This document shows, piece by piece, positions 55,007 to 55,404 of a stretch of 64,000 bases of DNA. Numbering within the stretch: the first letter of the stretch is position 1; every line of letters starts with the position of its first letter. The position numbers and the translations under genes are program-made. The notes beneath the pieces were generated by a model, which saw nothing but the letters and a program-made list of their open reading frames with translations, ran no database searches and had not been told where the DNA came from. Source of the DNA: Anaerolineae bacterium (GTDB taxonomy: Bacteria; Chloroflexota; Anaerolineae; Aggregatilineales; Phototrophicaceae); NCBI GenBank assembly GCA_030950085.1, contig JAUZRW010000134.1, forward strand, positions 1 to 64,000. The letters run 5' to 3'.

Positions 55007-55369
55007 ATGTTGAAACGATTGTCGCTCTTAATACTGGCACTGCTGAGTCTAGCTGCTTGTAGCTCATCACAGACACAGTTGCCATTAGCTGAGGGCAAGC
55101 CGACACTGATATTCTTCTACACTGAAAATTGAGCGCCTTGACAAGCCGCACAACCTATCGTGGATGGGTTTCAAGAAGAATTCAGTTCTAATATTGCCTT
55201 TGAGTATTTGAACGCTACTGATGGTGGCGCGGGTGAAGCTGCATTTGTGCAATTAGGAGTACGTGGACATCCCACTATCATCATTTTCGATGCGACTGGT
55301 GAGGAAATTTATCGTACTTTTGGACTTGTAGAAGAAGATGCTATAGAAGGCATATTGCAAGATTTTTAG
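55007..55369 (+). CDS. Candidate UxxU selenoprotein: thioredoxin-fold lipoprotein
   Basis: Read with two TGA codons kept open, this is a 120-residue lipoprotein. The signal peptide 'MLKRLSLLILALLSLAAC' has lipobox LAAC with Cys18. The thioredoxin fold follows: 'PTLIFFYTEN', then TGA (55130-55132), Ala, Pro, TGA (55139-55141), then 'QAAQPIVDGFQEEF'. The TGAs fall at residues 42 and 45, exactly where thioredoxins have CxxC. The cis-Pro loop 'VRGHPTIIIFDATGEE' is intact (Pro89). There is no other stop before TAG at 55367-55369. TGA is a normal stop elsewhere in the window (for example 17928-17930). A hairpin of SECIS type lies 18 nt after the second TGA. I infer selenocysteine at both sites. Loss of function by two nonsense changes is the main alternative. 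No selenium genes are in the window. Confidence 0.75.
55152..55170 (+). promoter_or_regulatory. Bacterial SECIS-like hairpin inside the coding sequence
   Basis: AACCTATC (55152-55159) and GATGGGTT (55163-55170) form a gapless 8-bp stem with one T-G wobble and the loop GTG (55160-55162). The loop begins 18 nt after the second TGA and 27 nt after the first. As I recall, bacterial SECIS elements need a small apical loop with a G in its first two positions about 16-37 nt after the UGA. Both TGAs fit that window. Confidence 0.65.
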
Positions 55370-55377
55370 TTGATATA

Positions 55378-55404
55378 GGGCGTGAAACTGAACGCCCCAT
55401 TTTG
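55378..55404 (+). terminator. Terminator between the selenoprotein gene and the HMA gene
   Basis: GGGCGT (55378-55383) pairs with ACGCCC (55392-55397) across an 8-nt loop, followed by a short T-run. It lies 8 bp after the selenoprotein stop. Confidence 0.7.

Follow-up and report, generated by a model that had tools for sequence, protein, structure and literature searches.

The stretch of 64,000 nucleotides analysed here (the window), from an Anaerolineae bacterium, carries a gene that very likely encodes a selenoprotein with a selenocysteine (Sec)-x-x-Sec (UxxU) active site, in which a single hairpin is shared by two UGA codons (probability about 0.92). The frame and its conservation, the Sec machinery, the covarying hairpin, the predicted fold and the bias of the gene neighbourhood are directly supported by our results, and the insertion of Sec at both sites and the use of one hairpin for both are inferred from them. 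There are no protein or selenium data, and the actual incorporation of selenium is likewise an inference.

When TGA is translated as U, the gene product reads MLKRLSLLILALLSLAACSSS...PTLIFFYTENUAPUQAAQPIVDGF...GHPTIIIF...LQDF*, and TGA at codons 42 and 45 provides the sole interruptions of the frame (Table 1). The first-pass annotation had described a frame with a start, a lipobox, a cis-proline loop and an intact end, with TGA at both active-site positions, and had proposed it as a candidate UxxU selenoprotein. All of these features held at the positions listed in Table 1 and the proposal is supported, with the incorporation of selenium itself remaining inferred. The lipobox and the GHP cis-proline loop are common to the homologues; A17 and C18 of the lipobox are invariant in an alignment of 14 sequences, and the assignment as a lipoprotein was made by eye. 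With Cys placed at the TGA sites, the protein matches the Pfam families Thioredoxin (PF00085; 2.6e-9, 37.4 bits vs a gathering cut-off of 23.5) and Thioredoxin_2 (1.5e-8). The AlphaFold model has a pLDDT of 91.2 and its best PDB matches in Foldseek are thioredoxins throughout (E about 1e-9), so that membership of the thioredoxin fold, taken as a PF00085 score over the cut-off together with a thioredoxin fold with cis-proline, is met. The protein falls below the curated cut-off of the TrxA equivalog TIGR01068 (45.2 vs 96.8 bits), has no match to PF00578 (Prx-like, AhpC-TSA) at E 1e-3 and does not match the NF041115 profile. A Pfam search with the 88-aa product of the ORF immediately upstream returned no match; this ORF and the UxxU gene are likely to share a transcript.

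Table 1. Positions of the UxxU gene, its elements and its immediate neighbours in the window.
Feature	Position	Strand	Basis or remark
Upstream ORF, 88 aa	54734..55000	+	ends 6 nt ahead of the UxxU start
UxxU thioredoxin-fold lipoprotein gene	55007..55369	+	120 aa plus TAG; translated with TGA=U
Lipoprotein signal peptide, lipobox LAAC (Cys18)	55007..55060	+	sequence
First UGA, Sec42, N-terminal active-site residue	55130..55132	+	predicted from TGA
Second UGA, Sec45, resolving position	55139..55141	+	predicted from TGA
SECIS-like hairpin AACCUAUC-GUG-GAUGGGUU	55152..55170	+	fold, position-specific conservation, codon and covariation tests
Cis-proline P89 of the GHP loop	55271..55273	+	G87-H88-P89 invariant in 14-sequence alignment
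Intrinsic-terminator-like hairpin GGGCGT-N8-ACGCCC, then T-rich DNA	55378..55397	+	fold -11.6 kcal/mol; directly past the TAG of the UxxU gene
CopZ-like heavy-metal-associated (HMA) protein, 69 aa	55409..55618	-	PF00403 4.9e-13; convergent with the UxxU gene

The double TGA is a property of a family. When 396 genomes of the same class were searched with the UxxU protein, nearly all of the top matches had two TGA codons, and we fetched and examined 52 UxxU genes (the window gene included), 33 UxxC genes and 11 CxxC genes. The frames of all 52 UxxU genes are open on either side of the two TGA sites and contain no other stops, and the alignment remains conserved past the second UGA. The first site is TGA in every UxxU and every UxxC gene (52/52 and 33/33), and the second is TGA in 52/52 UxxU genes and TGC or TGT in 33/33 UxxC relatives. 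The homologues thus have Sec or Cys at the TGA positions, as the claim of the first-pass annotation required, and the UxxC and CxxC relatives supply the Cys homologues expected of a bacterial selenoprotein. The possibility that the TGA codons are sequencing errors failed, because the same pair recurs in dozens of independent assemblies at 31-54% protein identity.

In a tree of 122 relatives, 53 of the 54 UxxU proteins fall into one pure clade, with the reservation that the shortness of the domain leaves many forks weak. No sampled member of this main clade has Cys at either site and its relatives are UxxC or CxxC; being UxxU throughout, the clade does not meet the single-Sec criterion of a UxxC thioredoxin selenoprotein. 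The remaining UxxU protein sits among the UxxC proteins, and we take it to be L072 from its sequence EFWAVWUPTU. The thioredoxin L072 (G207:C213) has UxxU in a sequence similar to the UxxC group (EFWAVWUPTUQAMRPIVH) and apparently represents a second, independent gain of double Sec. In our sample of the phylum outside the class, L125 was the one additional UxxU lipoprotein, and L116 was a counterpart with Cys. A contig search with a single UxxU protein as the query returned only one distant CxxC thioredoxin, and says little on the spread of the family outside the phylum.

The hairpin that follows the UGAs is supported by fold, codon and covariation tests, and bears on the SECIS check proposed in the first-pass annotation. 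The DNA CCC ATC GTG RAT GGG, 3' of the UGAs, hardly varies, even at third codon positions, in genes whose products are identical at only a third to a half of the residues. It folds as CCCAU-C-GUG-R-AUGGG, within the core CCYRUC-GUG-GAYRGG, and the loop G is the 28th nucleotide past the first UGA and the 19th past the second. Codon choice in the hairpin departs from that of the same genes elsewhere: the Val codon of the loop is GTG in 52/52 UxxU genes (vs 126 of 340 Val codons elsewhere), and the Gly codon of the stem is GGG in 45/46 (vs 104 of 450 Gly codons). The full 5-bp stem is present in 47/52 UxxU genes, compared with a mean of 3.0 and a maximum of 10 when codons were redrawn 1000 times from the genes' own usage elsewhere, and in 30/33 UxxC genes (null 2.2); none of the 11 CxxC homologues has it. 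Among UxxC relatives, changes in one side of the stem are matched in the other (e.g. CCTGTC...GACAGG). Pair 27-35 is A-T (A-U) in 65 of 85 genes and G-C in 20, with no mixed pairs, and on the tree all seven of its well-supported independent changes are two-sided (p=0.016).

UxxU and UxxC genes place the hairpin identically relative to the first UGA, so the second UGA brings no additional conserved hairpin with it. In the selD of the source genome, a hairpin is predicted after the UGA, its loop near nucleotide 20; the 18 nt between the second UGA of the UxxU gene and its hairpin loop resemble this spacing. The UxxU genes thus have the hairpin expected of a bacterial selenoprotein gene, a short distance 3' of the UGA and with a G in its apical loop. 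This evidence is strong, and we consider it very likely that the covarying hairpin is an RNA element tied to UGA recoding, as is the bacterial SECIS; it is short (5-8 bp), and there are no SelB-binding data for its GUG/CGUGA loop. A separate hairpin for the first UGA, containing the second (GCG-C-CUU...AAG-C-CGC), folds in the window gene; the columns that it needs are variable in the family, and it was dropped. As a further observation, L116 (G409:C292) is a CxxC lipoprotein near the UxxU clade whose DNA retains most of the hairpin (CCC GTC GTG GAC GAG), and is possibly a Sec-to-Cys revertant.

The source genome is equipped for Sec insertion. It encodes a tRNA-Sec with anticodon UCA, SelA, SelB (a 624-aa frame over its cut-off) and SelD, so that all four components of a bacterial Sec system, which the first-pass annotation had named as a check on its proposal, were found. 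Among relatives, SelA was found in 43 of the 46 genomes with a UxxU gene; this co-occurrence is consistent with our reading and is not discriminating, because 27 of 34 control genomes without a UxxU gene carry SelA too. Other selenoprotein genes were also seen: the selD of the source genome has an in-frame TGA of its own (L020; ACAGUASKLGPK), making it a second selenoprotein gene there, and a TlpA/ResA-like frame near a UxxU gene (L029) contains UxxC (MFFHSWUQPC) and is another probable selenoprotein.

The three UxxU genomes without a SelA match are two that are 67% and 78% complete, and G319, a one-contig, near-complete 5.6-Mb relative from the same family. G319 has an intact UxxU gene with its hairpin (L023, G319:C1:371668-371985), clustered with DsbA-like and cytochrome c genes. 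SelA was not found in this genome, SelB and SelD were not over their cut-offs, and tRNA-Sec gave no match among the only 150 of 428 candidates that were scored. Its congener G242 possesses SelA, SelD and tRNA-Sec, and the simplest reading of G319 is a recent loss of the Sec trait.

The gene neighbourhood offers an indication of function. We sampled 40 UxxU genes with 1.5 kb on either side, and the control consisted only of the outer flanks of the same loci. Relative to these flanks, CopA-type (heavy-metal P-type) ATPases (10/40 loci), c-type cytochromes (11/40) and DsbA-like proteins (8/40) are enriched about 3-fold, 5-fold and 23-fold per base, respectively. Pfam confirmed these three families, and identified further neighbours as a CsoR-type repressor, a cupredoxin/cytochrome c protein, and PCYCGC and DUF1573 proteins. 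At one locus (L034, G051:C176), the UxxU thioredoxin domain runs on into a cytochrome c-like domain (YCAACH) at the C-terminus. In the window, the CopZ-like HMA gene points the same way. The link to copper and cytochromes is statistical and differs between loci. The likeliest role of the UxxU protein is to reduce copper or haem proteins outside the cytoplasm while anchored in the membrane, an inference that we would be as ready to see overturned as upheld.

We propose the following mechanism. SelB with Sec-tRNA(UCA) would bind the single hairpin in the coding region and recode both UGAs, as inferred from the anatomy of the gene. The hairpin loop lies 27 nt beyond the first UGA and 18 nt beyond the second, and the same hairpin would presumably be used sequentially for the two. 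The product would be an oxidoreductase of thioredoxin fold, kept outside the cytoplasm by a lipid anchor and with Sec-x-x-Sec as its active site. Its reduced diselenol would attack the oxidised disulfides of neighbouring extracytoplasmic proteins, the likeliest substrates being copper proteins, cytochrome c or cytochrome oxidase at their CxxC or CxxxC sites, and the internal diselenide formed after the attack would be re-reduced by a membrane electron donor. The substrates are inferred, and the redox cycle is proposed because of the fold and the gene neighbourhood, by analogy with the membrane-anchored TlpA of Bradyrhizobium, which reduces ScoI and COX II (PMC6696091). The two proteins are alike in being membrane-anchored, extracytoplasmic, thioredoxin-like reductases in a copper/cytochrome oxidase setting, the function of the UxxU protein resting on this analogy; TlpA differs in its Cys active site and its subfamily, and there is no direct evidence for Sco or COX II as a substrate of the UxxU protein.

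Several other readings were weighed. One UGA might be decoded efficiently while the other mostly terminates or takes another residue, giving a mainly truncated or UxxC-like product. The hairpin does lie at the UxxC position relative to the first UGA, which leaves the second UGA at a second distance, and two serial recoding events should lower the yield. Nevertheless, the invariance of the second TGA, which never reverts to Cys within the main clade, the conservation of the frame beyond it and its selD-like spacing all speak against this reading, and we regard it as very unlikely. That the gene is a nonfunctional relic, i.e. a pseudogene or an assembly error placing stops at the active site, is all but excluded. 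The G319 gene, without detectable Sec machinery, leaves room for at least one relic copy elsewhere, but the recurrence of the same two codons in dozens of independent, diverged genomes, the covarying hairpin and the lack of additional stops oppose it, and decay is ruled out for the UxxU family by conservation. The earlier argument that random decay would not place two stops on the catalytic residues held (the chance is about 1.4e-4 for two random stops), although this figure is superfluous because 52 genes have TGA at both sites. A code in which TGA stands for an ordinary amino acid (e.g. Trp or Gly) can be dismissed with similar confidence: no evidence for it was found, TGA ends 4 of the 36 long ORFs in the window, as the first-pass annotation had argued in treating TGA as an ordinary stop, and the complete Sec machinery and the relatives with Cys at the TGA sites also contradict it. 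A reassigned code is thus ruled out by the TGA stops and the Sec machinery.

A further rival concerns function only and is compatible with the UxxU selenoprotein explanation. The protein might serve in general extracytoplasmic thiol or peroxide defence, or in disulfide-bond formation with the DsbA-like neighbour. A DsbA-like gene lies directly downstream at several loci, and known selenoproteins are mostly antioxidant or thiol-redox proteins (PMC9312934). Against it stand the repeated CopA-type ATPases and c-type cytochromes, the cupredoxin/cytochrome c protein, the CsoR-type repressor and the cytochrome c fusion of L034, and we judge it the weaker option by a modest margin.

The UxxU motif is already known, and what is likely to be new is its occurrence in a PF00085 thioredoxin lipoprotein. 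The precedent in SelL, cited in the first-pass annotation, held via secondary citations: the SelL/Prx-like thiol:disulfide oxidoreductase (PF00578) has UxxU (Shchedrina 2007, cited in PMC2398784; listed in PMC13188914), and UxxU also occurs in a Prx-like 2 family from ocean metagenomes (PMC2398784). SelL and the window protein both have a Sec-x-x-Sec redox motif on a thioredoxin-type fold; however, SelL belongs to PF00578, whereas the window protein is a lipid-anchored classic thioredoxin matching PF00085, and the tabulated Prx-like family mixes UxxC and UxxU, unlike the main clade here. A 2026 inventory of prokaryotic selenoproteins lists UxxU for the Prx-like oxidoreductase (PF00578), a metal-binding/mercuric reductase family and FmdB, and gives Trx (PF00085) and the PF13098 thiol:disulfide interchange protein only as UxxC (PMC13188914). 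The metal-binding NF041115 and FmdB-type proteins (PMC13188914) share the motif but are different families. The UxxC thioredoxin selenoproteins (PF00085, PF13098) share the fold and Pfam families of the UxxU protein, and in the UxxC relatives found here the hairpin recurs at an identical distance from the first UGA, but they contain one Sec, with Cys as the second active-site residue. We found no record of UxxU in a PF00085 thioredoxin lipoprotein in the literature searched, outside which many subscription papers lay, and an earlier description is not excluded. Three points go beyond the first-pass annotation: the two UGAs have a single hairpin between them, the family is widespread in the class, and its neighbours place it in a copper/cytochrome context.

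UxxU genes are likely to be truncated or overlooked by gene callers that treat UGA only as a stop. Double-Sec active sites are rare, and the reason for selenium at both the attacking and the resolving positions is puzzling; the UxxU clade, with its UxxC and CxxC relatives, makes the need for double selenium directly testable, and its genes constitute a natural test of one bacterial SECIS hairpin serving two UGAs at different spacings. In the bolder reading, whose odds we place neither for nor against, the clade as a whole would possess an obligate diselenide thioredoxin, made by one hairpin recoding two UGAs (27 and 18 nt), and in Chloroflexota-like bacteria this protein would work at the outer face of the membrane, where it would rapidly reduce copper proteins or cytochrome c during their maturation. 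The family may represent an unnoticed selenium step in the copper and cytochrome handling of a large bacterial group.
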